DNA of 64,000 nucleotides, taken from the NCBI GenBank assembly GCA_933228675.1, contig OW121744.1, positions 57,493,775 to 57,557,774 of the forward strand, in the 5' to 3' direction. Below are positions 9,711 to 60,700 of the stretch, in pieces. Made by a program: the position numbers and the translations under genes. Within the stretch, counting starts at the first letter, position 1; every line of letters starts with the position of its first letter. The stretch comes from Stomorhina lunata. Its lineage: Eukaryota; Arthropoda; Insecta; Diptera; Rhiniidae. A model generated the notes under the pieces. It did not search any database. It was not told the DNA's origin and worked only from the letters and a program-made list of their open reading frames with translations.

Positions 9711-10981
9711 ATGGGTGTTTTTTTTAGAGGTATAGAACTTCGAATTGAAATAAAACACAAGAAAATCGTTTTAATGTCCATCAGTTTGCCTTTATTGGAA
9801 GGATAATTTTATGCCATTAATGTTTAAATATGATTTCGGGCATGTGGCCGCCGCGGCTGGCTCGAATAAAGCCAATTCTACAGGTCCAATTTTCAACTAC
9901 TTTTTCGAGCATATGGGGCCGTATATTGGCAATAACGCCACGAATGTTGGCTTCCAAGTCCCCTAACGTTTCTGGTTTGTTGGCGTAGACGAGCGACTTC
10001 ACATATCCTCAAAGAAAATAATCCAGTGGTGTCAAATCGCACGATCTTGGTGGCCAATCGAATGTTTCCTTCAATAAATCAATTGTGACGTGCGCTGTGT
10101 GGCATGTAGCGCCGTCTTGTTGGAACCACAACTCATCCACATTCATGCCATCCAATTGGGGAACAAAATAGTCGGTTATCATGGCTATATACCGGTCTCC
10201 ATTTATGGTAACTGACTCTTCAGCATTATTTCGGAAGAAGTATGGCCCAATGACTCCACCAGCCCATAGAGCACACCAAACAGTCAGTTTTTGTGGATGT
10301 AATGGCGTCTCAAGGGTCTCATGTGGATTCTCTTCACTCCAAATGCGGCAATTTTGCTTGTTGACGTAGCCATTCGATCAAAAATAAGCCTCATCACTGA
10401 ACAAAATTTTGCGATGAAAATCAGCATCGAGATCAATCTCATTTTCGGCCCATACACCAAAATCACGACGCATTGCATGGTCTCGCGGCTTTAATTCTTG
10501 CACAAGCTGGATCTTGTAAGGTCGCAAGCCAAGATCTTTGCGCAAAATCTTCCATAAAGTTGATGGACAAAGCTCCAATTGCTGTGCACGGTGGCGAATC
10601 GATTCATTCGGGTCCTCTTCAACACTTTGCTCTACAGCGGCAATTGTTTCTTCGGTGCGCACTGTTCGACGTCGCTGCGGATGCGTATTATCACATAGAG
10701 TAATCGTAGTGCGAAAACGATCCATGGTTAACCGAATTAATTGCTCTGATGGACGATTATGTCGACCATAAAATGGACGGAGCTTGCGGTAAACTTCGCG
10801 AACTGAACCATTATTTTCGAAATAAATTTGCACGATTTGCAAGCGTTGTTCTTTTGTCAACCTATTCATGATGAAATGGCAAACCAAACTAAATATTAAT
10901 CACTTGACAGCTGACAAAATGGCCGCCAGTTAAAAAAGTGATGCCAACTTAAAGTTCTATACCTCAATAAAAAACACCCGA
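9711..10981 (-). mobile_element. mariner element, copy 1
   Basis: The terminal inverted repeats are about 27 bp (GGGTGTTTTTTTTAGAGGTA at 9713; complement ending CAATAAAAAACACCC at the right). TA is duplicated at 9709-9710 and 10982-10983. It is nearly identical to copy 2 at 16704-18006 in reverse orientation, so both are probably recent insertions. Confidence 0.9.
9817..10869 (-). pseudogene. mariner transposase, two nonsense mutations
   Basis: This is a homolog of the intact transposase at 16816-17901, starting at the same ATG (MNRLTKEQ, 10869-10867). The N-terminal part reads open to FSDEAYF, then the Trp codon of that motif is TGA (near 10378-10380). A second Trp, in the DYFLWGY motif, is also TGA (near 10009-10013). 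Both are TGG to TGA changes. No frameshift was noticed. It keeps QQDG at the second catalytic Asp, whereas copy 2 has QQDD. It cannot give full-length protein without readthrough. Confidence 0.85.
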
Positions 10982-16703: not shown

Positions 16704-18006
16704 TCGGGTGTTTTTTATTGAGGTATAGAACTTTAAGTTGGCATCACTTTTTTAACTGGCGGCCATTTTGTCAGCTGTCAAGTGATTAATATTTTGGTTG
16801 GTTTGCCATTTCATCATGAACAGGTTGACAAAAGAACAACGCTTGCAAATCGTGCAAATTTATTTCGAAAATAATGGTTCAGTTCGCGAAGTTTACCGCA
16901 AGCTCCGTCCATTTTATGGTCGACATAATCGTCCATCAGAGCAATTAATTCGGTTAACCATGGATCGTTTTCGCACTACGTTTACTCTATGTGATAATAC
17001 GCATCCGCAGCGACGTCGAACAGTGCGCACCGAAGAAACAATTGCCGCTGTAGAGCAAAGTGTTGAAGAGGACCCGAATGAATCGATTCGCCACCGTGCA
17101 CAGCAATTGGAGCTTTGTCCATCAACTTTATGGAAGATTTTGCGCAAAGATCTTGGCTTGCGACCTTACAAGATCCAGCTTGTGCAAGAATTAAAGCCGC
17201 GAGACCATGCAATGCGTCGTGATTTTGGTGTATGGGTCGAAAATGAGATTGATCTCGATGCTGATTTTCATCGCAAAATTTTGTTCAGTGATGAGGCTCA
17301 TTTTTGGTTGAATGGCTACGTCAACAAGCAAAATTGCCGCATTTGGAGTGAAGAGAATCCACATGAGACCCTTGAGACGCCATTACATCCACAAAAACTG
17401 ACTGTTTGGTGTGCTCTATGGGCTGGTGGAGTCATTGGGCCATACTTCTTCCGAAATAATGCTGGAGAGTCAGTTACCATAAATGGAGACCGGTATAGAG
17501 CCATGATAACCGACTATTTTGTTCCCCAATTGGATGGCATGAATGTGGATGAGTTGTGGTTCCAACAAGACGACGCTACATGCCACACAGCGCACGTCAC
17601 AATTGGTTTATTGAAGGAAACATTCGATGAGCGCATAATTTCGCGGAATGGACCTGTCAATTGGCCACCAAGATCGTGCGATTTGACACCACTGGATTAT
17701 TTTCTTTGGGGATATGTGAAGTCGCTCGTCTACGCCAACAAACCAGAAACGTTATGGGACTTGCAAGCCAACATTCGTGGCGTTATTGCCAACATACAGC
17801 CCCATATGCTCGAAAAAGTAGTTGAAAATTGGACCTGTAGAATTGGCTTTATTCGAGTCAGCCGCGGCGGCCACATGCCCGAAATCAGATTTAAACATTA
17901 ATGGCATAAAATATCCTTCCAATAAAGCCAAATTGATGGACATTAAAACGATTTTCTTGTGTTTTATTTCAATTCGAAGTTCTATACCTCTAAAAAAAAC
18001 ACCCTT
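16704..18006 (+). mobile_element. mariner element, copy 2, apparently full length
   Basis: The terminal inverted repeats are GGGTGTTTTTTATTGAGGTA at the left, with the matching complement ending TACCTCTAAAAAAAACACCC at the right. TA flanks lie at 16702-16703 and 18007-18008. The element carries an uninterrupted transposase frame (16816-17901). Copy 1 at 9711-10981 is close to identical and inverted, with 5.7 kb between them. Confidence 0.92.
16816..17901 (+). CDS. mariner-family transposase, uninterrupted 361 residues
   Basis: This cut-and-paste transposase would bind the element's inverted repeats and catalyse excision and TA-targeted insertion in the nucleus. I start at ATG 16816 (MNRLTKEQ); the frame is open 18 bases further upstream but without an ATG. 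Residues about 4-50 and 88-115 look like the two helix-turn-helix parts of the paired-like DNA-binding domain. YKIQLVQELKP (118-128) stands where mariners have the WVPHEL-type linker. The catalytic acids are D159 (FSDEAHF), D252 (QQD) and D289 (SCDLTPLDYF), with 36 residues between the second and third. D253 replaces the Gly found in copy 1 and in the relic at 1668, which may impair catalysis. Its own promoter would lie in the 5' repeat region. Confidence 0.92.
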   Translation: MNRLTKEQRLQIVQIYFENNGSVREVYRKLRPFYGRHNRPSEQLIRLTMDRFRTTFTLCDNTHPQRRRTVRTEETIAAVEQSVEEDPNESIRHRAQQLELCPSTLWKILRKDLGLRPYKIQLVQELKPRDHAMRRDFGVWVENEIDLDADFHRKILFSDEAHFWLNGYVNKQNCRIWSEENPHETLETPLHPQKLTVWCALWAGGVIGPYFFRNNAGESVTINGDRYRAMITDYFVPQLDGMNVDELWFQQDDATCHTAHVTIGLLKETFDERIISRNGPVNWPPRSCDLTPLDYFLWGYVKSLVYANKPETLWDLQANIRGVIANIQPHMLEKVVENWTCRIGFIRVSRGGHMPEIRFKH

Positions 18007-19496: not shown

Positions 19497-19989
19497 TTCA
19501 GAAATATATTTTTTTTGGAAATTTCAATGAACATTTTTATATAAAGAAAAGTACACTTTTTGCAATAAATTTATGTAATTTATTAAGATTACTTTGTAAT
19601 TCTTTTTTCACAAAAATCTTTAAAACTGAACAAGGTTTATGGCCACTTTTGGACACAGTTAGACAAATATCTAGGAAATTCGGAAATTTTAATTAAAACT
19701 TTTGAATACAGAAGAGTATGTTTTTCGACAACTTGAGTTTTTTTTTAGAAAACTGGGAAAAATTGCCCGGCCCTATAAGATTTGTACCCAGAGCTTACGA
19801 ACATTACACCTAATATAATTTAATTAATAAATATTTTGAAATACATAATGAAATTTTTTTAACAGAAACAAAAAACGTCCAAAAACCACCACTGGTTGTA
19901 GGTTACGTGTCCAAAATTGTTCGAAATATATTTTGCACGCAGCCTTATCCTTTAGAAATTTAAAAAAATAAATCTTAAAAAGATTTATC
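19497..19989. other. unassigned AT-rich spacer
   Basis: No gene is seen. The last part (19860-19989) may already belong to the Penelope-like fragment that follows. Confidence 0.5.
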
Positions 19990-20095
19990 AAAAACATTGG
20001 GATATTAAACATTAAATCAAAATGTTTTACTGTAGTGTATTGTACTAAGAACCCAATTTATTACAATTATTTATTATTGTAGTAAATACTTTTTT
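19990..20095 (-). mobile_element. Penelope-like element fragment without its ribozyme
   Basis: TTTTACTGTAGTGTATTG, ACTAAGAACCCAATTTATTA and TTTTTTGATAAAACCAAA match the repeat at 48341-48425. The match stops just where the hammerhead begins in that copy and is replaced by the 30-bp array. The array could have started at this junction. Confidence 0.65.
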
Positions 20096-22242
20096 GATAA
20101 AACCAAATTTTTTTAAAGAATTTTTTTTATCAAAAATGTTTCTAAAGAAAATTTTTTTATCAAAAATGTTTCTAAAGAAAGTTTTTTTATCAAAAATTTT
20201 TGTAAAAAAATTTTTTTTTTAATTTTAGAAAATTTTTTGATAAAAAATTTTCTATAGAAAATTTTTATTGCCTCAAAAATTTTTCAATAGAAATTTTTTT
20301 ATCAAAAATAGAAATTTTTTTTTTTATCAAAAATAGAAATTTTTTTATCAAAAATATAAATTTTTTTATCAAAAATAGAAATTTTTTTACCAAAAATATA
20401 AATTTTTTTTATCAAAAATAGAAATTTTTTTTTATCAAAAATTTTTCTATAGATAATTTCTTTATCAAAAATTTTTTTATAGAAAATTTTCTAAATTAAA
20501 ATTTTTCTATAGAAAATTCTTTTTTTATCAACAATTTTTCTATAGAGAATTTTTTTATCAAAAATTTTTCTATAGAAAATTTTTTTGACAAGAATTTTTC
20601 TATAGAAAATTTTTTTATCAGAAATTTTTCTACAGAAAATTTTTTTTATCAAAAATACAAAATTTTTCTACACAAAATTTTTTTATCAAAAATTTTTCTA
20701 TAGAAAATTTCTTTATCAAAAATTTGTTTATAGAAAATTGTTTTAATTAAAATTTTTCTATAGAAAATTCTTTTTTTATCAACAATTTTTCTATAGAAAA
20801 TTTTTTATCAAAAATTTTTCTACAGAAAATTTTTTTATCAAAAATAGAAAATTTTTTTTTATCAAAAATTTTTCTATAGAAAATTGCTTATCAAAAATTT
20901 TTTTATCAAAAATTTTTCTATAGAAAATTTTTTTAACAAAAATTTTTTTATAGAAAATTGTTTTATCAAAAATTTTTCTATAGAAAATTTTTTTATCAAA
21001 AATTCTTCTACAGAAAATTTTTTTATTAAAAATTTTTCTATAGAATATTTTTGTATCAAAAATTTTTCTATAGAAAATTTTTTTTTATCAAAAATGTTTC
21101 TATAGAAAATATTTTTATCAAAAATTCAGAAATTTTTTTTGTCAAAAATTTTTCTATAGAAAATTTTTTTATCAAAAATTTTTCTATAGATAATTTCTTT
21201 ATCAAAAATTTTTTTATAGAATATTTTCTAAATTAAAATTTTTCTATAGAAAATTCTTTTTTTATCAACAATTTTTCTATGGAAAAATTTTATCAAAAAT
21301 TTATCTACAGAAAATTTTTTTTTATCAAAAATAAAAAAATTTTTTTATCAAAAATTTTTCTATAGAAAATTGCTTTATCAAAAATTTTTTTATCAAAAAT
21401 TTTTCTACAGAAAATTTTTTTAACAAAAATTTTTTTTTAGAAAATTGTTTTATCAAAAATTTTTCTATAGAAAATTTTTTTATCAAAAATTCTTCTACAG
21501 AACATTTTTTTATAAAAAATTTTTCTATATAATATTTTTGTATCAAAAATTTTTCTATAGAAAATTTTTTTATCAAAAATGTTTCTATAGAAAATATTTT
21601 TATCAAAAATTCAGAAAATCTTTTTTGTCAAAAATTTTTCTATAGAAAATTTTTTTAACAAAGATTTTTCTATAGAAAATTTTTTTTATCAAAAATAGAA
21701 AATTTTTCTACAGAAAATTTTTTTATCAAAAATAGAAAATTTTATTTTCAAAAATTTTTCTATAGAAAATTTCTTTATCAAAAATTTGTTTATAAAAAAT
21801 TTTTTTAATTAAAATTTTTCTATAGAAAATTCTTTTTTTATCAACAATTTTTCTATAGAAAATTTTTTATCAAAAATTTATCTACAGAAAATTTTTTTAT
21901 CAAAATCAGAAAATTTTTGTTATCAAAAATTTTTCTATAGAAAATTGCTTTATCAAAAATTTTTTTATCAAAAATTTTTCTATAAAAAATTTTTTTAACA
22001 AAAATTTTTTTATAGAAAATTGTTTTATCAAAAATTTTTGTATAGAAAATTTTTTTATCAAAAATTCTTCTACAGAAAATTTTTTTATTAAAAATTTTTC
22101 TATAGAATATTTTTGTTTCAAAAATTTTTCTATAGAAAATTTTTTTATCAAAAATGTTTCTATAGAAAATATTTTTATCAAAAATTTTTCTATAGAAAAT
22201 TTTTTTATCAAAAATTTTTCTATAGAAAATTTTTTTCAAAAA
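20096..22242. repeat. satellite array 1, 30-bp period, with higher-order repeats
   Basis: The basic unit is TTTTTCTATAGAAAA joined to TTTTTTTATCAAAAA, 30 bp between successive CTATAG cores in the regular parts (for example 22101 and 22131). Variant units (TATCAACAATTTTTC, GAAAATTGCTTTATC, CAAAAATTCAGAAA) recur as blocks. The GAAAATTGC marker is at about 20879, 21365 and 21940, spacings of 486 and 575 bp, showing higher-order duplication. The regular frames (FLIKKFSIEK-type reading) are by-products of a period divisible by three and not genes. Confidence 0.9.
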
Positions 22243-23562
22243 GTATGACTATTCGCATTTGATCCCAAATCTGTTACATTTATTTATTAATGTAACAGAC
22301 CAATTTATTGATAAAAACAAGTAAGAATGCGCTATAGTCGGTCAAGCCGACCATACGATACCCTTTACCACTAAGGTCAATGGTGTTATTTTTCCTGTGT
22401 AAAGACAAATATTTGCTAAATTTTGCCATCATACAAACATTTTCTCAAAACTAATATATTCAACCTGTTTCCGTCATTTGGACTTATATGAGAGCTAGGG
22501 TCAAATGTGGACCGATTATCTCGAAATTTGGCAGATTGATTACAGTTGTTACAAAAATTATGTATGCAAAAAATAGACTCAAAATTTCCATTATCTTTAG
22601 ATTTACGAGCGTTTTAGTGATTTTTTGTCTCATTTAGTGCGTTTTTAAAGAAGAATTTGTATGGAAGCTATGGTCAAATGTGGACCGATTTGGTACAGTG
22701 ATTTTAGCTGACATAAGCAGTATTTGTTTTAAATTTCATGAAAAAATATTGATATTTGTGGCCAATATAGCAATTCCGGGAAGTGGGACCTATGGGAGGT
22801 ACCATAAATAATGGACCGATTTTGACCAATTTCAATAGCCATGGTTCCATTATCAAAAAATGATCTGTGCCAAATTTCATCAAATTATCTATAGAATTGC
22901 GACCTGTAGTTTGATTACAAGGTTTATATGGGGGTCCAGCCAGCCAGCCAGCCAGACGGACGGACGGACATAGCTAAATCGACTCAGAAAGTGATACCTA
23001 TTGGTATACTAAAAGGTGGGTCTAAGACAATTATTTCTATGCGTTACAAACATCAGCACAAACTTATAATACCCTTTCCACCTATGGTGGTGAAGGGTAT
23101 AATAATATTTACATCCCGACAATTTTGTTATTTTTTGAAAATTTGTTTTATCAATTTTTTTATAGGAAATTTTTTATCAAAAATTTTTCTATAGAAATTT
23201 TTTTTTATCAAAAATTTTTTTTATATAAAATTATTTTATCAAAAATTTTTCAATAGAAAATTTTTTTATCAAAAATTTTTCAATAGAAAATTTTTTTATC
23301 AAAAATTTTTCAATAGAAAATTTTTTTATCAAAATTTTTCTATAGACAATTTTTTTATTAAAAATTTTTCTATAGAATTTTTGTTTTTTAAACTTGTCTA
23401 TACAAATTTTTTTTATTAAAAATTTTTCTATAGAAAATTTTTTTATCAAAAAAATTTATATAAAAAACTTTTTCAACAAAAATTTTTTTATAGAAAATTA
23501 AAAAAAAAATAAAGAAATGTAACATATTTGGGATCTAATGCGAATACTCCTTCTTTTTGAAT
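22243..23562. mobile_element. segment bounded by inverted ATTCGCATT.GATCCCAAAT.TGTTACATTT blocks
   Basis: The left border reads ATTCGCATTTGATCCCAAAT then TGTTACATTT (22252-22283). The right border (about 23513-23550) is its complement with few changes. The pair encloses a dispersed repeat (22316-23104) and more array units. A similar block near 24371-24395 (GTAACTGATTATGATCAAG) may be another copy of the end. It could be an inverted-repeat element that landed in the array, or an inverted duplication of array flank; I cannot decide. Confidence 0.45.
22316..23104 (+). repeat. dispersed repeat with terminal hairpins (short relative of the 1.6-kb family)
   Basis: It starts AACAAGTAAGAATGCGCTAT, followed by the hairpin GTCGGTCAAGCCGAC (22337-22351) and ATACCCTTTACCAC. 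It ends in a second hairpin, ATACCCTTTCCACC with its complement GGTGGTGAAGGGTAT. The interior has GTCAAATGTGGACCGATT twice, CCAGCCAGCCAGCCAGACGG and ATAGCTAAATCGACTCAGAA. No coding capacity. It interrupts satellite array 1. Confidence 0.75.
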
Positions 23563-24179: not shown

Positions 24180-24362
24180 ATGCGAGAAGCATCCCTACTT
24201 TTAAACAGATCGAAAACCTCGCATTATTACCTATTTTACAAACACAATCATTACGAATTATGTTCGTAAACCAAAGGCAAAAGCGCAGATTATCGACGGA
24301 ACAAAAGTAAACACAAACATTTTTCATATTCATCTTCCTTCACTTCCCACATTAATTTTAAA
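24180..24362 (-). mobile_element. diverged Penelope-like element fragment
   Basis: It shares AAGCGCAGATTATC, GAAAACCTC.CATTA and ACAAACATTTTTCA-type blocks, in order, with 48495-48665. The hammerhead region is not present. Confidence 0.55.
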
Positions 24363-25520: not shown

Positions 25521-25524
25521 GAAA

Positions 25525-28410
25525 TTTTTAATTAAAATTTTTCTATCAAAAAAATATATTGAAAATGTTTCTATAGAAAAAATTTTATAATGAAAATTTT
25601 TCTATACAAAAAAATTTTATAATGAAAATTTTTCTATAGAAAAAATTTTATAATGAAAATTGTTCTATAGAAAAAATTTTATAATGAAAATTTTTTATAA
25701 AAAAAAAATTTATAATGAAAAGTTTTCTATAGAACAAAATTTATAATAAAAATTTTTCTATAGAAAAAATTTTAAAATGAAAGTTTTTCTATAAACAAAA
25801 ATTTTATAATAAAAATTTTTCTATAGAAAAATTTATAATTTCTCCATAGAAATATTATAATGAAAATTTTTCTATAGAAAAATTTTTATAATGAAAATTT
25901 TTCTATAGAAAAATTTTTATAATGAAAATTTTTCTATTGAAAAATTTTTATAATGAAAATTTTTCTATAGAAAAATTTTTATAATGAAAATTTTTCTATA
26001 AAAAAATTTTCATTATAAAAATTTTTCAATAGAAAAATTTTTATAATGAAAATTTTTCTATAGAAAAATTTTTATAATGAAAATTTTTCTATAGAAAAAT
26101 GTTTATAATGAAAATTTTTCTATAGAAAAATTTTTATAATGAAAATTTTTCTATAGAAAAAATTTTATAATGAAAATTTTTTATAAAAAAAATTTATAAT
26201 CAAAAATTTTCTATAGAACAAAATTTATAATAAAAATTTTTCTATAGAAAAAATTTTAAAATAAAAGTTTTTCTATAAACAAAAATTTTATAATGAAAAT
26301 TTTTCTATAGAAAAATTTATAATTTCTCCATAGAAATATTATAATGAAAATTTTTCTATAGAAAAATTTTTATAATGAAAATTTTTCTATAGAAAAATTT
26401 TTATAATGAAAATTTTTCTATAGAAAAATTTTTATAATGAAAATTTTTCTATAGAAAAATTTTTATAATGAAAATTTTTCTATAGAAAAATTTTTATAAT
26501 GAAAATTTTTCTATAGAAAAATTTTTATAAAGAAAATTTTTCTATAGAAAAATTTTTATAATGAAAATTTTTCTATAGAAAAATTTTTATAATGAAAATT
26601 TTTCTATAGAAAAATTTTTATAATGAAAATTTTTCTATAGAAAAATTTTTATAATGAAAATTTTTCTATAGAAAAATTTTTATAAAGAAAATTTTTCTAT
26701 AGAAAAATTTTTATAATGAAAATTTTTCTATAGAAAAATTTTTATAATGAAAATTTTTCTATAGAAAAATTTTTATAATGAAAATTTTTCTATAGAAAAA
26801 TTTTTATAATGAAAATTTTTCTATAGAAAAATTTTTATAATGAAAATTTTTCTATAGAAAAATTTTTATAATGAAAATTTTTCTATAGAAAAATTTTTAT
26901 AATGAAAATTTTTCTATAGAAAAATTTTTATAATGAAAATTTTTCTATAGAAAAATTTTTATAATGAAAATTTTTCTATAGAAAAATTTTTATAATGAAA
27001 ATTTTTCTATAGAAAAATTTTTATAATGAAAATTTTTCTATAGAAAAATTTTTATAATGAAAATTTTTCTATAGAAAAATTTTTATAATGAAAATTTTTC
27101 TATAGAAAAATTTTTATAATGAAAATTTTTCTATAGAAAAATTTTTATAATGAAAATTTTTCTATAGAAAAATTTTTATAATGAAAATTTTTCTATAGAA
27201 AAATTTTTATAATGAAAATTTTTCTATAGAAAAATTTTTATAATGAAAATTTTTCTATAGAAAAATTTTTATAATGAAAATTTTTCTATAGAAAAATTTT
27301 TATAATGAAAATTTTTCTATAGAAAAATTTTTATAATGAAAATTTTTCTATCGAAAAATTTTTATAATGAAAATTTTTCTATAGAAAAATTTTTATAATG
27401 AAAATTTTTCTATCGAAAAATTTTTATAATGAAAATTTTTCTATAGAAAAATTTTTATAATGAAAATTTTTCTATCGAAAAATTTTTATAATGAAAATTT
27501 TTCTATAGAAAAATTTTTATAATGAAAATTTTTCTATCGAAAAATTTTTATAATGAAAATTTTTCTATAGAAAAATTTTTATAATGAAAATTTTTCTATA
27601 GAAAAATTTTTATAATGAAAATTTTTCTATAGAAAAATTTTTATAATGAAAATTTTTCTATAGAAAAATTTTTATAATGAAAATTTTTCTATAGAAAAAT
27701 TTTTATAATGAAAATTTTTCTATAGAAAAATTTTTATAATGAAAATTTTTCTATAGAAAAATTTTTATAATGAAAATTTTTCTATAGAAAAATTTTTATA
27801 ATGAAAATTTTTCTATAGAAAAATTTTTATAATGAAAATTTTTCTATAGAAAAATTTTTATAATGAAAATTTTTCTATAGAAAAATTTTTATAATGAAAA
27901 TTTTTCTATAGAAAAATTTTTATAATGAAAATTTTTCTATAGAAAAATTTTTATAATGAAAATTTTTCTATAGAAAAATTTTTATAATGAAAATTTTTCT
28001 ATAGAAAAATTTTTATAATGAAAATTTTTCTATAGAAAAATTTTTATAATGAAAATTTTTCTATAGAAAAATTTTTATAATGAAAATTTTTCTATAGAAA
28101 AATTTTTATAATGAAAATTTTTCTATAGAAAAATTTTTATAATGAAAATTTTTCTATAGAAAAATTTTTATAATGAAAATTTTTCTATTGAAAAATTTTT
28201 ATAATGAAAATTTTTCTATAGAAAAATTTTTATAATGAAAATTTTTCTATAGAAAAATTTTTATAATGAAAATTTTTCTATAGAAAAATTTTTATAATGA
28301 AAATTTTTCTATAGAAAAATTTTTATAATGAAAATTTTTCTATAGAAAAATTTTTATAATGAAAATTTTTCTATAGAAAAATTTGTATAATGAAAATTTT
28401 TCTATAGAAA
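25525..28410. repeat. satellite array 2, 31-bp period, about 90 units
   Basis: The unit is ATTTTTCTATAGAAAAA joined to TTTTTATAATGAAA, 31 bp. Units from about 26340 to 28400 are almost identical; the left edge (25525-26340) is diverged and contains a duplicated block 486 bp apart (TGAAAATTTTTTATAAAAAA at 25685 and 26171). Between about 27349 and 27540 a CTATCG variant occurs every second unit (62-bp spacing, four times), a clear dimeric higher-order repeat. One unit near 25998-26025 is locally inverted. Confidence 0.95.
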
Positions 28411-29245
28411 AGAAAAGGGGTTTTTGGATTGAAAACGCATATGAAAGGTAATGTTGCAACTATAATTATAACCACCACTGTAATATATACACATTATGAA
28501 TAAAACATTGTATGTGCGCTTATCAGTTCTCTGTCGTTTGAATCCTCTACAGACACATGAAGTCAATTGCGATTTTAAGGTGTTTGTTCAATACTCTCTA
28601 CAACGAAATGCCCCCCATTCCATGTCGACGAATACCATCTTCTGTCAGTCGTCAGCGTGCCAGCCTAAAGTCTAAACGAAAAAACAACAATCCAAAAAAC
28701 TAAGCAACCACCCAAACTCCTATTATCTTCTTCCTCTATATAAATACAAGTAAATGTGCCTAACACCAATAATCAACTTTTTGCATTAAAAGCTTAAAAA
28801 ATTTAAACTTTAATATGAAAGTGGATTTTTGGAAAGGACACCAAACAGCATCAACCAGCCAAGCAACAACGTTTGTGTTGATGATGACGATGATGGTGAT
28901 GATTCTGCTAAAAACAATAAGCGATTTTTTAGGGTTCTTTTGATGAGCACAGCATTTTAAGTCTAATGACAATAGATGGATGAATGGATGGCTACAACGT
29001 TCAACTAAAGAATGGGTGAAATTATTTGATAAAATGTGTATAAGAATCTGTAAAATGAGAAAAGTGATATCGGTATATTGAAGTTTAATTTGTATGCATT
29101 TGTTTTAATGTTGATTTTAATTTACAAAACTTAAAAATATTTTAACAATTAAAAAAAGAAAAAACTTTGTTAAACGCTTCCTATAATCAAGTCAAATCAT
29201 TCTAGTTACATTCTACTTAATGGCTACTGCATCACCTAATTACAT
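28411..29245. other. spacer between arrays 2 and 3
   Basis: The base composition is more mixed than in the neighbours. A TATA-like CTCTATATAAATAC lies at 28733-28746 and a GATGATGACGATGATGGTGA run near 28878. I see no convincing exon. It may be a short stretch of unique DNA. Confidence 0.45.
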
Positions 29246-29699: not shown

Positions 29700-31937
29700 G
29701 GAAAAGTTGACGTTAGGAAGACATTTCTACAAAAAAGTTGACGATAGGATAACATTTCTATAGAAAAGTTGCGAAAGTATAACATTTCTATAGAAAAATT
29801 GCGAAAGTATAACATTTCTATAGAAAAGTTGCGAAAGTATAACATTTCTATAGAAAAGTTGACGATAACATTTCTAAAGAAAAAATGACGATAGAATAAC
29901 ATTTCTATAGAAAAAATGACGATAGGAAGACATTTCTATAGAAAAGTCGACGATAGGAAGACATTTCTATAGAAAAGTTGACGATAGGAAGACATTTCTA
30001 TAGAAAAGTTGACGATATGAATACATTTTATAGAAAAGTTGACGATAGGAAGACATTTCTATAGAAAAGTTGACGATAGGAAGACATTTCTATAGAAAAG
30101 TTGGCGATAGGAAGACATTTCAATAGAAAAGTTGACGATAGGAAGACATTTCTATAGAAAAGTTGATGATAGGAAGACATTTCTATAGAAAAGTTGACGT
30201 TTAGAAGACATTTCTATAGAAAAGTTGACTTAAGGAAGACATTTCTATAGAAAAGTTGACTTTAGGAAGACTTTTCTATAGAAAAGTTGAAGTTAGGAAG
30301 ACATTTCTATAGAAAAGTTGACGTAAGGAAGACATTTCTATAGAAAAGTTGACGTTAGGAAGACATTTCAATAGAAAAGTTGACGTTAGGAAGACATTTC
30401 TATAGAAAAGTTGACGTTAGGAAGACATTTCTATAGAAAAGTTGACGTAAGGAAGACATTTCTATAGAAAAGTTGACGTTAGGAAGATATTTCTATAGAA
30501 AAGTTGACGTTAGGAAGACATTTCTATAGAAAAGTTGACGTTAGGAAGACTTTTCTATAGAAAAGTTGACATTAGGAAGACATTTCTATAAAAAAGTTGA
30601 CGTTAGGAAGACATTTCTATAGAAAAGTTGACGTTAGGAAGACTTTTCTATAGAAAAGTTGACGTTAGGAAGACTTTTCTATAGAAAAGTTGACGTTAGG
30701 AAGACTTTTCTATAGAAAAGTTGACGTTAGGAAGACTTTTCTATAGAAAAGTTGACGTTAGGAAGACTTTTCTATAGAAAAGTTGACGTTAGGAAGACTT
30801 TTCTATAGAAAAGTTGACGTTAGGAAGACTTTTCTATAGAAAAGTTGACGTTAGGAAGACTTTTCTATAGAAAAGTTGATGTTAGGAAGACTTTTCTATA
30901 GAAAAGTTGATGTTAGGAAGACTTTTATATAGAAAAGTTGACGTTAGGAAGACTTTTCTATAGAAAAGTTGACGTTAGGAAGACTTTTCTATAGAAAAGT
31001 TGACGTTAGGAAGACTTTTCTATAGAAAAGTTGACGTTAGGAAGACTTTTCTATAGAAAAGTTGACGTTAGGAAGACTTTTCTATAGAAAAGTTGACGTT
31101 AGGAAGACTTTTCTATAGAAAAGTTGACGTTAGGAAGACTTTTCTATAGAAAAGTTGACGTTAGGAAGACTTTTCTATAGAAAAGTTGACGTTAGGAAGA
31201 CTTTTCTATAGAAAAGTTGACGTTAGGAAGACTTTTCTATAGAAAAGTTGACGTTAGGAAGACTTTTCTATAGAAAAGTTGACGTTAGGAAGACTTTTCT
31301 ATAGAAAAGTTGACGTTAGGAAGACTTTTCTATAGAAAAGTTGACGTTAGGAAGACTTTTCTATAGAAAAGTTGACGTTAGGAAGACTTTTCTATAGAAA
31401 AGTTGACGTTAGGAAGACTTTTCTATAGAAAAGTTGACGTTAGGAAGACTTTTCTATAGAAAAGTTGACGTTAGGAAGACTTTTCTATAGAAAAGTTGAC
31501 GTTAGGAAGACTTTTCTATAGAAAAGTTGACGTTAGGAAGACTTTTCTATAGAAAAGTTGACGTTAGGAAGACTTTTCTATAGAAAAGTTGACGTTAGGA
31601 AGACTTTTCTATAGAAAAGTTGACGTTAGGAAGACTTTTCTATAGAAAAGTTGACGTTAGGAAGACTTTTCTATAGAAAAGTTGACGTTAGGAAGACTTT
31701 TCTATAGAAAAGTTGACGTTAGGAAGACTTTTCTATAGAAAAGTTGACGTTAGGAAGACTTTTCTATAGAAAAGTTGACGTTAGGAAGACTTTTCTATAG
31801 AAAAGTTGACGTTAGGAAGACTTTTCTATAGAAAAGTTGACGTTAGGAAGACTTTTCTATAGAAAAGTTGACGTTAGGAAGACTTTTCTATAGAAAAGTT
31901 GACGTTAGGAAGACTTTTCTATAGAAAAGTTGACGTT
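29700..31937. repeat. satellite array 3, 31-bp period, about 72 units
   Basis: The unit is GACGTTAGGAAGACTTTTC joined to TATAGAAAAGTT, 31 bp. The left third is diverged (GACGATAGGAAGACATTTC and GCGAAAGTATAACATTTC variants). From about 30900 to 31937 the units appear identical. The change from ACATTTC to ACTTTTC units goes left to right, and the right edge is abrupt. It shares the TTTCTATAGAAAA core and the 31-bp length with array 2. Confidence 0.95.
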
Positions 31938-32170
31938 ACGAACTGGTTGTATTTATTTTAAGATTTTCGTGACTTTTGATGTAGATCTTATATGAGAGCT
32001 TTTGTCAAATATGGATCAATTCTAACGAAATTTAACGTTAGAAATAAAGTACATAAAAGCAATATTTCATAAAAATCTACATTACGGAAAGTCAATTCTA
32101 TGGGCTTTACCCGGGATAATGAACCAATTTCGTAAAGTTTCAATAGCCAATAGCCATTCATTACACTCAG

Positions 32171-35221: not shown

Positions 35222-37495
35222 GTAAAGTAGTAGTAGTAGTAATAATTCTTTATTTCTGTTTCTTTTTTCTTAAAAATAACAAACAATCAGTAAGAATATA
35301 CGGCCTTAGTCGTGGGCCGGAAAAAAAGAGTTTTACTCGATATAATACAACAATATTTTATATTTTTTAATTATAATTGTATTCAGATATTAAAATTTTT
35401 CTATAAGTCAAAGCATTGATAATATATTGTAATAGACTATTCCAAAAGTTAACGCCGTTTAACAGGGAAATTATCTCTTCTTCTGAAAATGTGAGTTTGT
35501 TAAAATAACGTTGTCTGTAAATATTTAAAGTTGGACATTTTCCGATAAAATGTTGCAAATTTTCGATTTCTTTCCTGTTACATAGGGAACAATATTTGTA
35601 GTTTTTTCTTGAGTGACGTGATCCATTTAGTTCTATCAAATCACAACGGGCTTTAAATATCCACATTATATCTGTTTGCCTGTGATTTTGAAAATAGTGC
35701 CGACCCATAAGAGGGTCTAGGTTTTTATAAAAAGACTCAGATTGTTGCATTTTATGAATTGTATTTCTATGGTATTCGGCTTTTAGGCAGTGGTTAATCA
35801 TAAACTGTTGGTCGTTCCACTGGTTCAGCGACATATTTTGTAACCATTGTATGTTATATTGAAGGCCTATAGAATTTAAGTGTTTTGCCCAGTATATATT
35901 TTTTTCTAAGATTAAAATGCTTAGTTGATGCGGCAATCGCGACTGAGAAAATTCAAAAATTGTTCGTTTAATATACTTCAAATGTAGTACTAGCGTAAAC
36001 AGGTGATTATCTTCCATTCCTGACTCTAGCAGAATAGTATAATTTGGGGTGAATTTTGGTAATTTTAATATTCGTTTGATAAAAAATCTTTGTAAGCTAT
36101 CCACTTGATCGAAATGTGAATGTCCCCATACCTGTGCTCCGTAAGATTGTATCGAGCGACATACGGCATTAAAAAGTTGTATTTTCGACTCAAAACATAT
36201 ATCATTTTTACCCAAAAAATTACTCCAGATCATGTTTATACAATTCTTTGCAGCTTGTGTCTTTATTTTCACATATTTTGTAAACACACATTTTGGTGTG
36301 AGTGTCATACCAAGGTAGCAGTATTCGTTCACCTTTTCAATATCATTACCACCATATTTCCACTTTTCATTTGTCGCATCTCTTCCACCATTTTTAAAAA
36401 CCATAATTTTTGATTTTGATAGATTCACCTGCAGATTCCAGTATCTGCAATACTTTTCTAAGTTATTGATCATCCTTTGTAGTACGCTTACATCATCAGC
36501 CAATAACACAATATCATCGGCGTATAACAGTAGTCTAATATTGAGACTCCCTATATGTAAGCCGCATCCAAGTTCCTCATGCAGATCGTTTATATACAGT
36601 GAAAAGAGCAGAGGGGACAGTGTGCAACCTTGTTTTACACCTGACATGGTTTCAAACTTTTCGGATAATTCTATTCCGTTCCAAACTGTGCAATATGTGT
36701 TTTTATAAACATTTTCTATACAATTAGTCATTTTAGTGGACAATCCCATTGCGTGTAATTTAAAAATTAGTGATTTTCTTGCAACCGTGTCGAATGCGGC
36801 TTTGAAGTCCACAAAAAATGCATAAACTTTTTTCTTTTCGTTAAATTTAAGATGCACAATTGATGTTAAATTATATATGTTATCGATTGTGGAATAATTT
36901 TTCCTAAAACCAGCTTGGTATTCGGAGAGCACGTTGTTTCTGTGCACCCACTTATATATGCCAATTAATACTTTGGCAGCTACGTTCATGAGGGATATGC
37001 CTCTATAATTACCTGGTTCATTTATGTTGCCTTTTTTAAATATTGGGAATATAACACCGGTAGAAAATGATTTATCACCTTGTATCTTGTTACTGTTGTT
37101 AAACAAGGTATTATATGCGTTCTTCAGTTCCTGTATTAAATCATTTGGTGCATTTTTTAGGAATTCATAAGGAATTCTGTCTTCTCCGGGAGCTTTATCT
37201 AGTTTCGAATTTTCAAGAACCGAATAAATTTCTAAAGATCTAATGTCTGCATCCAGTAACTCATCTGTGTGAAAAATGGTGCATATTGTATATCCTGAGC
37301 GGTTTGCATTGGATTTAACAGTTGCATAAAATATAATTTAAAAGTTGATGAAGAAATATTTGTAGGCTCTTGAGAATTCTTGTTTCTTATTTCGTTTGCT
37401 ATCTTCCACCATGACTTGCTGTCCGTTACCTTATTTATTTTGAGGTCTAGCTCTTTATAGTAAAGTAATTTTGTAAAGTATATTTTGGTACCTTA
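35222..37495 (-). mobile_element. 5'-truncated non-LTR retrotransposon with a long RT frame
   Basis: The minus-strand element runs from a truncated 5' border near 37495 to a 3' tail of TAC/ACT repeats (35227-35241), preceded by an AATAAAG signal (plus-strand CTTTATT near 35248). It contains the reverse transcriptase frame described separately. No endonuclease domain remains. It is the least decayed retrotransposon in the window. Confidence 0.85.
35367..37490 (-). pseudogene. non-LTR reverse transcriptase, one frameshift, 5'-truncated
   Basis: From 37106 down to 35367 the frame is open for 579 residues, and the homology extends upstream. The same frame continues to about 37260 (LDADIRSLEIYSVL, then KAPGEDRIPYEF). 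After one frameshift near 37260-37265, another frame reads to about 37490 (LKINKVTDSKSWWKIA, EPTNISSSTFKLYF). In the 579-residue part, FVDFKAAFD (98-106), SGVKQGCTLSP (155-165) and LLYADDIVLLADD (193-205) are the RT palm motifs, with the catalytic YADD intact. Near the C terminus CSLC...H....C (CX2CX9HX4C) is a zinc-knuckle-like motif. The enzyme would prime reverse transcription at nicked target DNA. I read it as a CR1/jockey-like lineage; the clade is not certain. Confidence 0.88.
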
Positions 37496-48334: not shown

Positions 48335-48447
48335 TTAAAAAGTTTTACTGTAGTCTATTGCACTAAGAATCCCAATTTATTACAATTATTTATTATTGTA
48401 ATAAATAGTTTTTTGATAAAACCAAAAAATGTTGGTGGGGAAACCTT

Positions 48448-48493
48448 TCATCGACGCGTTTCGATGGTTGGTTAGACCATCTCATCAGGAGGA
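48448..48493 (-). ncRNA. hammerhead ribozyme, copy 1 (one stem I mismatch)
   Basis: Minus strand: TCCTC (stem I), CTGATGA, stem II GATGGT/ACCATC with loop CTAACCA, GAAA, short stem III ACGCGT, then the GTC cleavage site and stem I partner GATGA. The core is complete. One stem I pair is C with U. The one- to two-pair stem III (GAAACGCGTC) is the form known from Penelope-like elements. Confidence 0.85.
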
Positions 48494-48935
48494 TTATCCC
48501 TAATTCTAGACAGAGCGAAAACCTCACATTATGTATAATTTGAGGGACTGAATAAATACGAATTATTATTATTGTGTCCAACAAATATCAACATAAAGCG
48601 CAGATTATCATCCGAACAGAAACACACAAACATTTTTCAGTTTTATCATTTCTTTATTTCCCACACTTTTGTTGTTGCTTTGTTGGCGACTAAGACAAAA
48701 GTGCTATAAAGGGGGTTCAAAGAAAGATTTAAATAAACAAAAGTTTATTTTAAAGCTTGGCACATGTGCAGCCGTATATTTATTAAAAAGGTTTATCAAA
48801 ATTTGGGACATCAAACATTTAATTAAAAAGTTTTACTGTAGTGTATTGCACTAAGAATCCCAATTTATTACAATTATTTATTATTGTAATAAAAAGTTTT
48901 TTGATAAAACCAAAAAATGTTGGTGGGGAAACCTT

Positions 48936-48981
48936 TCCTCGACGCGTTTCGATGGTTGGTTAGACCATCTCATCAGGAGGA
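48936..48981 (-). ncRNA. hammerhead ribozyme, copy 2 (all stems paired)
   Basis: Same architecture as copy 1, but the stem I partner is GAGGA, which pairs fully with TCCTC. Conserved core: CTGATGA, GAAA and GTC. It would cut after GTC at 48941 (minus strand). The cut sites of the two copies are 488 nt apart. Confidence 0.88.
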
Positions 48982-49030
48982 TTATCCTTAATTCTAGACA
49001 GAGCGAAAACCTCACATTATGTATAATTTG

Positions 49031-51771: not shown

Positions 51772-53890
51772 ATAAAATTTTTCAAAAATTTCTTATTTTT
51801 ATAGGAAATTTTTCAAAAATTTCTTATTTTTATAGGAAATTTTTCAAAAATTTCTTATTTTTATAGGAAATTTTTCAAAAATTTCTTATTTTTATAGGAA
51901 ATTTTTCAAAAATTCCTTATTTTTATAGGAAATTTTTCAAAAACTTCTTATTTTTATAGGAAATTTTTCAAAAATTTCTTATTTTTATAGGAAATTTTTT
52001 AAAAATTTCTTATTTTTATAGGAAATTTTTCAAAAATTTCTTATTTTTATAGGAAATTTTTCAAAAATTTCTTATTTTTATAGAAAATTTTTCAAAAATT
52101 TCTTATTTTTATAGGAAATTTTTCAAAAATTTCTTATTTTTATAGGAAATTTTTCAAAAATTTCTTATTTTTATAGGAAATTTTTAAAAATTTCTTATTT
52201 TTATAGGAAATTTTTCAAAAATTTCTTATTTTTATAGGAAATTTTTCAAAAATTTCTTATTTTTATAGGAAATTTTTCAAAAATTTCTTATTTTTATAGG
52301 AAATTTTTCAAAAATTTCTTATTTTTATAGGAAATTTTTCAAAAATTTCTTATTTTTATAGGAAATTTTTCAAAAATTTCTTATTTTTATAGGAAATTTT
52401 TCAAAAATTTCTTATTTTTATAGGAAATTTTTCAAAAATTTCTTATTTTTATAGGAAATTTTTCAAAAATTTCTTATTTTTATAGGAAATTTTTCAAAAA
52501 TTTCTTATTTTTATAGGAAATTTTTTCAAAAATTTCTTATTTTTATAGGAAATTTTTCAAAAATTTCTTATTTTTACAGGAAATTTTTCAAAAATTTCTT
52601 ATTTTTATAGGAAATTTTTCAAAAATTTGTTATTTTTATAGGAAATTTTTCAAAAATTTATTTTTATAGGAAATTTGTCAAAAATTTCTTATTTTTATAG
52701 GAAATTTTTCAAAAATTTCTTATTTTTATAGGAAATTTTTCAAAAATTTCTTATTTTTATAGGAAATTTTTCAAAAATTTCTTATTTTTATAGGAAATTT
52801 TTCAAAAATTTCTTATTTTTATAGGAAATTTTTCAAAAATTTCTTGTTTTTATAGGAAATTTTTCAAAAATTTCTTATTTTTATAGGAAATTTTTCAAAA
52901 ATTTCTTATTTTTATAGGAAATTTTTCAAAAATTTCTTATTTTTATAGGAAATTTTTCAAAAATTTCTTATTTTTATAGGAAATTTTTCAAAAATTTCTT
53001 ATTTTTATAGGAAATTTTTCAAAAATTTCTTATTTTTATAGGAAATTTTTCAAAAATTTCTTATTTTTATAGGAAATTTTTCAAAAATTTCTTATTTTTA
53101 TAGGAAATTTTTCAAAAATTTCTTATTTTTATAGGAAATTTTTCAAAAATTTCTTATTTTTATAGGAAATTTTTCAAAAATTTCTTATTTTTATAGGAAA
53201 TTTTTCAAAAATTTCTTATTTTTATAGGAAATTTTTCAAAAATTTCTTATTTTTATAGGAAATTTTTCAAAAATGTCTTATTTTTATAGGAAATTTTTCA
53301 AAAATGTCTTATTTTTATAGGAAATTTTTCAAAAATTTCTTATTTTTATAGGAAATTTTTCAAAAATTTCTTATTTTTATAGGAAATTTTTCAAAAATTT
53401 CTTATTTTTATAGAAACATTTTTTATTTTTATAGAAAAATTTCTTATTTTCATAGGAAAATTTTCCAAAGCTTCTTATTTTTATAGGAAATTTTTAAAAA
53501 AATTTTTTATTTTTATAGGAAACTTTTCAAAAATTTCTTATTTTTATATGAAATTTTTCATTTTTTCTAAAATTTCTTTTTTTTATAGAAAATTTCCAAA
53601 ATTTCTAATTTATATAGGAAATTTATTATTTTTATCGAAAATTTTTCAAAACTTTCTTATTTTTATAGGAATTTTTCAAAAAAAAATATTTTTATAGGAA
53701 ATTTTCAAAAATTTCTTATTTCTATAAAAAAATTGTAAAAATTTTCATATTTCTACAGGAAATTTTTCAAAATTTTTTTATTTTTATAGGAAATTTTTCC
53801 AAAATTTCTTATTTTTATAGGAAATTTTTCAAAAATTTCTTATTTTTATAGGAAATTTTTCAAAATTTTTTTATTTTTTTAGGAAATTTA
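51772..53890. repeat. satellite array 4, 31-bp period, about 68 units
   Basis: The unit is TTTTTATAGGAAATTTTTC joined to AAAAATTTCTTA, 31 bp. The left two-thirds is almost uniform. From about 53400 the units decay (deletions, ATTTTTTTAT and TTTCTAATTTATATAGG variants). There is no sequence identity with array 3 beyond the ATAG-GAAA-type core, yet the period is the same. Confidence 0.95.
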
Positions 53891-56800: not shown

Positions 56801-57718
56801 CAAAAAAATCTTTTTTAAGGTTAAAACTTTTTTTTCTTTGCTTTAATGTGTTTTTAAACATTATTATTTGTATTTATACTATTTTGAAACATGGGTATAA
56901 TGCTTGTTATTGACAGAAGATAGGCCTTCTTATAAAGGTACATCGAGGAATGGATGTCCCTAAAATATATATATATTTTTTTCAATAAATTGTAAAATTG
57001 GATTAAGTTTGGTTTTATCAAAAAAAAAAACTATTTATTACAATAATAAATTATTGTAATAAATTGGGATCTTAGTGCAATACACTACAGTAAAACTTTT
57101 TAATTAAATATTTTATGTCCCATAAATTTTGAAAAACCAATTTTAAAAAATTTTTCCTGAACAATTTAACTTGGCGTTAAAAATTTATATGTTTTATTGT
57201 TGTTTTTCTATTAGGGAAATAGGAATAAATTTTATCTGTTAGAGAATTTTAACGAATCTTTACTATTGCTGTTAAACCAATATAAAAATATAACTTTGTG
57301 CTAAATAAAATATATTTATATACTCAGAAAATAATTGAAGTTATATACTTAATACTCTTAAAAATCTATGATAAACTTGCCTAAATTAAAATTATTGTAA
57401 TACATAATTATAATAATAATAATAAAATATAAACTATTTATTAACATTTTGCTTAGCCAGTTTTTTTTGTTTCTCTGTTCTTACCTTTGAATCCCTTAAA
57501 ATTGTTATAATAATAATAATTATGAAGCATGATGTGGTTGATGATAGAATCGGCATAAACGAAATAGAGGATACATCTTTCAATTTGTTGTTTAGTCCTT
57601 TTTAAGTTTTTTATTGGAATTTGGGTGTTGTGTGGGAAGTATTTATGTGTGTGTGGGTATTTCCTATATAATATTTTGCTGCACTATTTTTTTTTATATT
57701 GAATTGCATTAAAATTAT
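53891..57718. other. AT-rich 3' flank of RYBP, likely including its 3' UTR
   Basis: No open frame of note. The minus-strand RYBP transcript must end somewhere here; many AATAAA-type signals (TTTATT on the plus strand) make the poly(A) site impossible to choose by eye. A Penelope-like fragment lies at 57005-57125. Confidence 0.5.
57005..57125 (+). mobile_element. Penelope-like element fragment, inverted
   Basis: It is the complement of the 48780-48910 block: AATAAATTATTGTAATAAAT, TTAGTGCAATACACTACAGT and AAAACTTTTTAATTAAA. Like the copy at 19990 it ends at GGTTTTATCAAAA, before the ribozyme. Confidence 0.7.
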
Positions 57719-60700
57719 TTAACTTCGAGAATCATTACTCTCACTAAAACTTTGCTCGCTAGATTCTCGTCTACTACCCACTGGTTTTGGCTTGTATTCC
57801 GTAATGAATACAGTCACGGAATTGACAGTGACTTCTCTTGTTTGGGCCGTTGAACGATCAACATTTTTTAAGCGGGCTGGATATTTTTTATGCTTATGTT
57901 TATCGTGGCCGGAGCTACTGTGGCGCGAGCCGGATGCGGATTTATTGCCGTTTGGCATGGCTCCTGATGCACCGGGTAATGTGGCAGCTTGTTGGGCGAC
58001 GAGGGCAGAATTAAGGCGTGGTTTACGTGTGGAAGTACCTTCAAATGAAATTTTTTGTTTGAAATTAATATTTTTATGTAAAAATTTAAATAAAAATTCA
58101 TCATATTCAAAAAATTGAAAAAAATTTGAAATTAGGAAAGGTTTGAACGAAATATAAATTTTGAATTTGAGTTTTAAATCAGACTGTGCTAAATGCATAC
58201 AGATGCTGATCTGAAGAAAATTTAGAATAAACTAAATTTAGTGTGAATGTATTGTGTGTTTAAAAAAAATGCTTTAAAGTAAAAAAGCTTAAATATTTTT
58301 GTTAGATTATAAGGAAATAAATTTCCAAAACTTTTTTATCATTGAAGAACTTTTAAATAAAAGTAAGTAATTGTGAAAAATGGATGTAAAATTAAGTATT
58401 AAAAAAAGGTCAAAAACTCCAAAAAATAACAAAAAAAATCTTTTTTTGTAAACCTATAGATAAGCATTATAAAAATGTCTAACTTAAAATTCTCATCTCA
58501 CAATTTTGCAATTTAAATCAATATGTTTTTTTCTGGGAATCTGTTAAGATATAGGCCACGGTTCTTGTAAATGTAACACTCTGGTTTGTTCTATTGTTTT
58601 GAAAAAATGTGGACGAAGTATTCCAGTTTAGGTTATTACAAATTTCATTTCGAATTGCTTTTATTATTGAATATCCTTTTTTAAAAGTACTCCCGATTGT
58701 ACCTCTATTAAATAATTTCATTATGTCATACACTAGAAATTAAATAAATGATGCATATAAGATCCTATACTGTGTAAAAGGGTAAAGCCCAAAGTTACCG
58801 AAATAGTTGGGTCCTACCAATGTGGCTTTAGACCTAGTAAATCTACAATTGTCATGATTTTTACACTACGTCAAATCCTGGAGAAATACAAATATCACTT
58901 CGTTCACTACAAGCCTGCTTTTGACAGCCCGATACGAACGAAGTTGTTTAAAGCAATGTCTGAGTTCGGAATTCATTATCATTATCTTCATAGAATGATG
59001 TTATGCAGGATGACATTAACTAATCCAACCTCATCAATTAAAAAAGGTAAGAGCATATTTATGTCCTTTATAACTAAACGGGGATTCAGGCAAGGAGTTT
59101 ATCATGCTATCTCTTTAATATTGTGTTAGAGAAAATCTTGCGAGATGCTGCAATTAACACAACTGGAACATTTTTCAACAGAAAACACATGCTACTTGCG
59201 TTTGCGAAGACATTGATATCCTGGGGTGCACACAGCGCGAGGCGACTGTAGTCTTTTTAAGTATTGATAAGGATCCAAAGAAAATGGGTCTAGTTGTCAA
59301 CGAATTAAAAATAAAAATGATGGTTTCTACAAGCAGACATTACACAAGAATTGAACCATATGTGATCGTTGAGAACTATAGATTCAAAGTTGTAAAATAA
59401 TTATATTACGTAGAATTAGACTTGTCAACCGATGCTTTTGGCCTAAGCAGGCAACTAACAAATAAAGCTTTCTCTGTAAGAACTAAAATTACGCGCTAAA
59501 AACGGTTATACTACCCGTTTTATTATATGGTGCTGAATCATGGGTGCTTGCACAGGCAGATGATGTTGTTCTTGGAGTTTTTGAAAGGAAGATTCTACGA
59601 AAAATCTTTAAAATTCGACAACATGCGCACAAAATCGAAGCGCACGGAATTCTAAAATATGCTCGGCCTTTAACCTTAACAGGTTGTAAATATAGGCCAA
59701 TCAAGTAAGTAAGTACATATGTAAATAGGTTGTAAACCCAAATTCATGGAACTATAAAGCGAAAAGTGTGTGTTTTTTAGGCCCTTAAAAAACTTTCAAT
59801 ATACATTACGCGAAAATACAAATTTAAGAACATTTGCTAAGTAAAATATGTCACAAAAACAAGGGCATATGGATTTAAAAAAATTTAATAAATTAATTAA
59901 CACAACATATTTACAAAAATTATAAAATGAAATTTCTTATTATTCATTTTATACAATTTTTTGATTGGCCAGAAAGACATCAACAGACCAAAATATTTCG
60001 TCCTCCAAGTTTAAACGTGCCTTGGTATTTAGAGGGTTAAATAAATATAAATTAATCAGAACTTTTGAGATAGAACAAATAGCTATCAGAGTGTTGTGGT
60101 CCAGTTGATGAGACCATTGGCAAATTCAATTTTTAATATGAACTTTACTAAGAATTTTATTTGTTTATTTTTCTTATGTTTTTGCAAATTTAGGTTGTTA
60201 TTAAATAAAATGGGTTATAATCCAAATGTGTTTGCCACAAAAACTAAAAGGGATGTATGTTCTGAATCCTGAAATTCTAAGAAGATTGAGAGATGTTCGT
60301 CTGCCTGTCTGTCTGTTGAAAGCACGATATGTCCCAAACGAAAGGAGCTGGGTCACTAAAACTTGGCAAAGATATTCTTCATTTCTTAGAGTTTTACCTA
60401 AGTACTAGGAAGCGTATACAATTTTATCGAAATCATCACATACAGCCATAGCTCCCATACAAAACAATTATGGAAGCAGCCCAATTTTCAACTGAAATAC
60501 ATTTAAATGCCAAAAAATGAAAAACTAAAATAGATATGTCCACTAAATTTAGCACAAGGAAGATTTTTGTAACAATTGGTCTCCATTTGACCAAGCTCCA
60601 ATATATATAATGACCACACAAAAAAATGTATACTTTTCTTAAAGATCATTTAATTCTCTTTAGACATACATTAAAAAAGTTACGTATTAAGAAAAGGACA

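Follow-up and report, generated by a model that had tools for sequence, protein, structure and literature searches.

A partial tandem of a short non-coding unit with two minimal type I hammerhead motifs in a fly genome, a candidate retrozyme-like retroelement copy

Background

Minimal tandem hammerhead ribozymes that possibly cut as dimers have been described for Penelope-like elements (PMC7761336); minimal versions also appear in PMC6155905, and the pseudo-LTRs and tandem arrangement of these elements are set out in PMC11167929. According to the latter, the hammerhead of a Penelope-like element from Anolis failed to cleave unless protein was added, and mutating it left insertion in vitro unaffected; both results tell against a simple cleavage story. 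Animal retrozymes, as portrayed in PMC7229834, are short non-coding tandem units with RNAs of 170–400 nt and with insects among the hosts named. Most canonical invertebrate retrozymes are described with a stable helix III, and amphibian motifs as being without a clear one (PMC7761336). Reverse transcription of an RNA circle has been proposed to give cDNA longer than one unit (PMC7761336, section 9). Fly hammerheads have already been published as type III motifs in the genomes of Musca, Rhagoletis, and Hermetia (PMC7936874), and repeats of Aedes aegypti carry a palindromic stem III for which a dimer was proposed (PMC3088659).

Here, we analyzed a 64-kb stretch of fly DNA (the window), in which a sequence-only reading had noticed two hammerhead ribozymes in tandem and had interpreted them as a retrozyme-like, Penelope-derived unit. 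The locus may be best read as a copy of a non-coding retroelement of the retrozyme kind with Penelope-type minimal type I hammerheads, inserted as about 1.43 units from a circular or tandem form, a reading to which we assign a probability of roughly 55%. The locus would then be a new example of an element kind already known from many animals.

Results

Two minimal type I hammerhead motifs

A pattern scan of the window found two hammerhead motifs with an identical 36-nt core, both on the minus strand (Table 1). In each of them, CTGATGA, which we take to be the hammerhead core consensus, is followed by stem II (6 bp, GATGGT with ACCATC, 7-nt loop), GAAA, and stem III, with cleavage predicted after the next C. 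Stem III has 2 bp (A-T and C-G) within ACGCGT and two bases closing it; this hexamer is its own reverse complement, so that it can pair over 6 bp between two molecules but over 2 bp, around a 2-nt loop, within a single one. Stem I is a perfect 5-bp helix in copy A (TCCTC with GAGGA) and contains one mismatch, at 48450, in copy B (TCCTC with GATGA). The type I architecture (core CUGAUGA, stem II, GAAA, a stem III closing at UH, stem I open) is present in full in A and with the stem I mismatch in B. Counting five stem I positions per side, the copies jointly span 48448–48981, and 488 nt separate their two sites of predicted cleavage. The sequence-only reading had given this same span and spacing, a complete core with 6-bp stem II and minimal stem III in both minus-strand copies, and a perfect stem I in its second copy (copy A here, at the higher coordinates). 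All of this was reproduced by the descriptor scan, the cleavage-site and stem I coordinates, and the five of five pairs in A, and we regard A and B as confirmed minimal type I hammerhead motifs.

Table 1 Features of the hammerhead locus and its relatives in the window
Feature	Position	Strand	Remarks
Hammerhead copy A	48936..48981 (core 48941-48976)	-	Outer limits with five stem I positions per side; cleavage predicted 3' of 48941
Hammerhead copy B	48448..48493 (core 48453-48488)	-	Outer limits with five stem I positions per side; cleavage predicted 3' of 48453
Upstream direct repeat	48823..49030	-	208 nt; hammerhead A plus 92 nt from the start of the MITE-like insert
Downstream direct repeat	48335..48542	-	208 nt; differs at 4 positions from the upstream copy; ends within the MITE-like insert
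Interior between the repeats	48543..48822	-	280 nt; starts with the remainder of the insert; long open frames absent
RNA between the two predicted cleavage sites	48453..48940	-	488 nt; 351 nt without the insert
MITE-like insert	48778..48914	-	137 bp; imperfect terminal inverted repeats GGTTTTATCAAAA / TTTTGATAAACC; ends approximate
Second copy of the MITE-like insert at the locus	48335-48426	-	Truncated, in the downstream repeat
Independent MITE-like copy	57008..57151	+	89% identity
Independent MITE-like copy	19975..20107	-	90% identity over 132 of 137 nt
Partial MITE-like copy	22262-22320		First 58 nt, 80% identity
Diverged relative of the unit	24191..24351	-	70% identity to 48665-48496; E 2.6e-15 in the window

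Chance expectation and covariance scores

The core pattern occurs twice in the window, against a mean of 0.02 in 100 shuffles, none of which reached two matches. A more stringent descriptor, requiring the core, at least 4 bp in stem II, and at least 2 bp in both stem III and stem I, found A and B in the window and nothing else. Applied to both strands of 60 Mb of sequence simulated from the dinucleotide composition of the window, it gave 21 matches, i.e., 0.022 per 64 kb, and just two matches (0.002 per 64 kb) had 4 bp or more in stem I. Since B is a duplicate of A, the two count as one independent event. A chance origin of the hammerhead pair is very unlikely.

In the Rfam covariance search proposed in the sequence-only reading, here run on the window, no family reached its gathering score anywhere. 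At a permissive setting (E up to 10), copy A gave a sub-threshold match to Hammerhead_1 (22.0 bits, E 0.026, gathering score 34). Copy B matched Hammerhead_3 at noise level under the same setting (15.6 bits, E 7.1, gathering score 48.5). Copy A had the best E-value among the eight permissive Rfam matches in a 1.6-kb stretch, one of which scored more bits (23.7) but had an E-value of 1.1. Low scores are presumably to be expected for variants with a minimal stem III. A scan of the window for other hammerhead relics (at most one core mismatch, five of six stem I positions paired) listed A alone, B dropping out by its stem I.

A short repeated unit with a MITE-like insert

The hammerheads lie in direct repeats of 208 nt that are 98% identical and spaced by 488 nt, so that the locus is laid out as 208 + 280 + 208 nt, a partial tandem of 1.43 units. 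The unit has a GC content of 31%, and no stop-to-stop frame above 85 aa overlaps it. Near-identical repeats and the lack of a reverse transcriptase frame between the copies were both part of the sequence-only reading and stand. Its description of the 488-nt unit was incomplete, though, as it missed a separate MITE-like insert that accounts for 137 of the 488 nt and leaves 351 nt.

This insert begins 26 nt after cleavage site A, and its terminal inverted repeats pair in the predicted fold. The two independent copies elsewhere in the window share its start base, end within 5 nt of each other, and have non-matching flanks. A MITE-like transposon, separate from the unit, that landed near the cleavage site would leave this pattern; no target duplication flanking it was recognized by eye. 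The insert is complete in the upstream repeat (with A) and cut short at 48335 in the downstream repeat (with B). Its presence in both repeats implies that the insertion preceded the duplication, and it is thereby a natural tag that orders the events, with the insert first and the multi-unit copy second. As a side observation, the MITE-like copies at 19975–20107 and 22262–22320 flank a 2.1-kb minisatellite (20105–22236). Its units include stretches of the type TTTTTATCAAAAA, which come close to the MITE-like terminal repeat; the minisatellite may have grown out of a MITE-like element.

The unit is strongly self-paired in predicted folds, both as a circle (z −5.8; 0 of 100 shuffles as low) and as a linear RNA (z −7.6; 60 shuffles). 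Strong pairing was also predicted for the MITE-like insert alone (z −4.6), the unit without the insert (−3.6), and the opposite strand (−4.2). Five of 30 random 488-nt stretches (15 shuffles each), all five overlapping tandem arrays, scored below −7.6, and another of the 30, at z −4.8, overlaps the unit itself. Because controls and random stretches are strongly paired as well, the self-pairing of the unit is weak evidence.

Junctions of the partial tandem

Both internal junctions look native. On the side where repeat passes into interior, the insert runs unbroken across 48823, as it does in the copies at 19975–20107 and 57008–57151. On the side where interior passes into repeat, the diverged relative at 24191–24351 covers 123 nt of interior and 47 nt of repeat in the same order as the unit, at 70% identity. 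The argument on this second side leans on that one diverged relative, in which similarity ends just before the hammerhead and the hammerhead is missing; beyond the homology its sequence is a different one and includes an inverted repeat, AGTTTCAG...CTGAAACT. With native-looking internal junctions, the outer ends would be the new junctions, which fits the insertion of a longer-than-unit copy and not a simple local tandem duplication. In keeping with the predictions of retrozyme models, the locus looks like 1.43 copies of a unit that was circular or arranged in tandem. A target-site duplication for the whole element was not found, the length of the best shared 6-mer being matched in 340 of 500 shuffles.

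Condition and predicted folding of the two ribozymes

The four differences among the 208 repeat positions are spread over both copies. A carries the derived state at 48988 (by one relative) and 48894 (by two relatives), and B at 48355 (by two relatives), so each copy has aged independently. At 48450, for which there is no outgroup, the pairing of stem I suggests that B has the derived state. The base in B breaks a stem I pair and sets CATCGA facing TCGATG, which creates a competing hairpin. With 16–60 nt of flank, this misfolded hairpin was predicted at 0.78–1.00 per pair, and stem II of B at no more than 0.11. In the same short contexts, stem II of A reached predicted probabilities of 0.59–0.96 and its stem I just 0.05–0.35. 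Neither motif was predicted to dominate in the full 696-nt stretch, where stem I and stem II stood at 0.06–0.07 and 0.16–0.17 in A and at 0.00 and 0.35–0.37 in B, with the misfold of B at 0.19–0.21.

We also modeled dimers in which each cleavage site is built from both copies, so that the site of A has a perfect stem I and that of B keeps its mismatch. The designed A.A dimer reached −32.3 kcal/mol, compared with −11.9 for a single A with stems I and II only; the single copy has a more stable alternative fold (−16.1). All designed dimers were less stable than the unconstrained cofold (A.A −32.3 vs −38.0, A.B −25.7 vs −39.7, B.B −19.1 vs −39.9). From these models, cleavage at A is plausible and copy B is probably impaired as a ribozyme. 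The sequence-only reading had further held that a transcript through both copies would be cut into a 488-nt RNA; the stem I mismatch and competing hairpin of B make such a release from this locus doubtful, and the locus probably no longer releases this RNA.

Discussion

Alternative explanations

Minimal hammerheads within direct repeats are present here as in the pseudo-LTRs of Penelope-like elements, to which they have been mapped (PMC7761336), and the repeats are candidate pseudo-LTRs. They could accordingly be the ends of a full-length Penelope-like element that lost its coding region by internal deletion, with 280 nt left. Such elements are described as sitting in tandem or partial tandem (PMC11167929), and since the match of the diverged relative stops at 48665, the stretch 48666–48777 could hide the deletion point. 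Against such a deletion, 123 nt of interior abut the repeat in this relative, all frames overlapping the unit are 85 aa or shorter, and the size of 351 nt fits a retrozyme unit without any deletion. Moreover, no Penelope coding domain was recognized in the 13 frames scanned (9 of 57 within 44–51.8 kb and 4 of 14 large frames); three weak Pfam matches among the nine nearby frames (E 0.03–0.06) were all below cut-off and taken as noise. We take the deletion seriously and consider it unlikely. The Penelope derivation in the sequence-only reading is thus matched by minimal hammerheads in direct repeats and not by any coding domain in these 13 frames, and Penelope ancestry of the unit is unproven.

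Unequal exchange or slippage could instead have duplicated part of a single-copy hammerhead relic in the DNA itself, and the adjacent repeats in the same orientation, their 4 differences in 208 nt, and the richness of the window in tandem arrays would agree with this. Such a local event, however, predicts a new internal junction and native outer ends, the reverse of what the junctions appear to be, and is improbable. That the hammerhead match itself arose by chance in AT-rich DNA and was duplicated later might be argued from Rfam scores below gathering. The expectation of 0.002 per 64 kb once stem I has 4 bp or more and the minimal palindromic stem III, a described type, both speak against this; a chance match was rejected on the simulated-sequence rate, and we give this origin hardly any credence.

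Comparison with known elements

Like the hammerheads of Penelope-like elements (including those of Lunse 2017, as cited in PMC7761336, PMC11167929, and PMC7936874), the motifs are of type I with almost no helix III and occur twice, in the same orientation, within terminal-type repeats, and cleavage as a dimer is discussed for the Penelope-like ones. Unlike in these elements, no reverse transcriptase or GIY-YIG frame was recognized between or beside the repeats among the frames scanned. With animal non-LTR retrozymes as described in PMC7229834, the locus appears to share a non-coding, low-GC, tandem unit with one hammerhead and the insertion of more than one unit, and the 351 nt without the insert fall within 170–400 nt. 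It differs in that the 488 nt with the insert exceed 400, in comprising only 1.43 units, and in that its RNA circle is a predicted one; moreover, its helix III is minimal (2 bp and a 2-nt loop), unlike that of most invertebrate retrozymes. Membership is complete in neither group. The Aedes aegypti hammerheads are, by their description in PMC3088659, also dipteran, located in interspersed repeats, and endowed with a palindromic stem III/loop III that would pair fully in a dimer, but over 10 bp and not 6 bp as here. The type III hammerheads of plant LTR retrozymes differ from the type I motifs at this locus, where a 4-bp target duplication, a feature of those plant elements, would not stand out. 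Relatives of the unit with a hammerhead numbered zero in the rest of the window and zero in collections of viral and of genome contigs, neither of which is a fly collection and from which records near the window's genome were possibly omitted.

Proposed origin and significance

For the preferred reading, of a retrozyme-kind copy inserted from a circular or tandem form, we start from the motifs, the repeats, the native-looking internal junctions, the shared insert, and the mismatch of copy B as they appear in the DNA, and infer RNA cleavage, circle formation, and reverse transcription by a Penelope-like enzyme. The unit would have existed as a circle or tandem array. Its ribozymes would process, or would once have processed, tandem transcripts to RNAs of unit length, most probably acting as a dimer via the 6-bp palindromic stem III. 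A host ligase would close the RNA circle, and a Penelope-like enzyme would reverse transcribe it. An RNA (or cDNA) exceeding the unit length would then have been copied and inserted as about 1.43 units with both ends truncated. The retrozyme-like character claimed in the sequence-only reading holds up as far as the short non-coding unit, the partial tandem, and the signs of a circular or tandem form are concerned, and not for release of the 488-nt RNA at the locus; given the decay of copy B, production from the locus itself has probably ceased.

More tentatively, and with rather less than even odds in our estimation, a circular-RNA retroelement of flies could have acquired the MITE beside its ribozyme without losing its mobility, and the resulting larger circle of 488 nt could then have been copied through more than one turn before insertion at this site. 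In this case an invertebrate retrozyme would depend on a palindromic stem III that forms as a dimer, and the MITE would have travelled inside the RNA circle. A working fly retrozyme family would offer an insect system in which to test ribozyme-made RNA circles as retrotransposition intermediates and whether Penelope-like enzymes move RNA circles.

Surroundings in the window

Long arrays of ~31-bp units with 90–96% matches (25522–28411, 29701–31942, and 51775–53889) fill several kb. A transposase-like frame occurs in two copies, at 16786–17898 (+) and 10009–10899 (−); one is open over 371 aa and matches the Pfam helix-turn-helix domain DUF4817, and the other is split into two frames. A 656-aa open frame at 35370–37337 (−), 11 kb from the unit, contains an RVT_1 domain (E 2.7e-38) and is in our judgement LINE-like by its motifs. 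An exon-like RYBP/YAF2 frame at 57722–58231 (−) matches YAF2_RYBP (PF17219) and by its protein matches points to a fly, probably a calyptrate, as the source of the window; among the 120 of 246 matches listed for it, the best is from Cochliomyia hominivorax (100% identity over 62% of the query), followed by Stomoxys calcitrans (97% over 64%).
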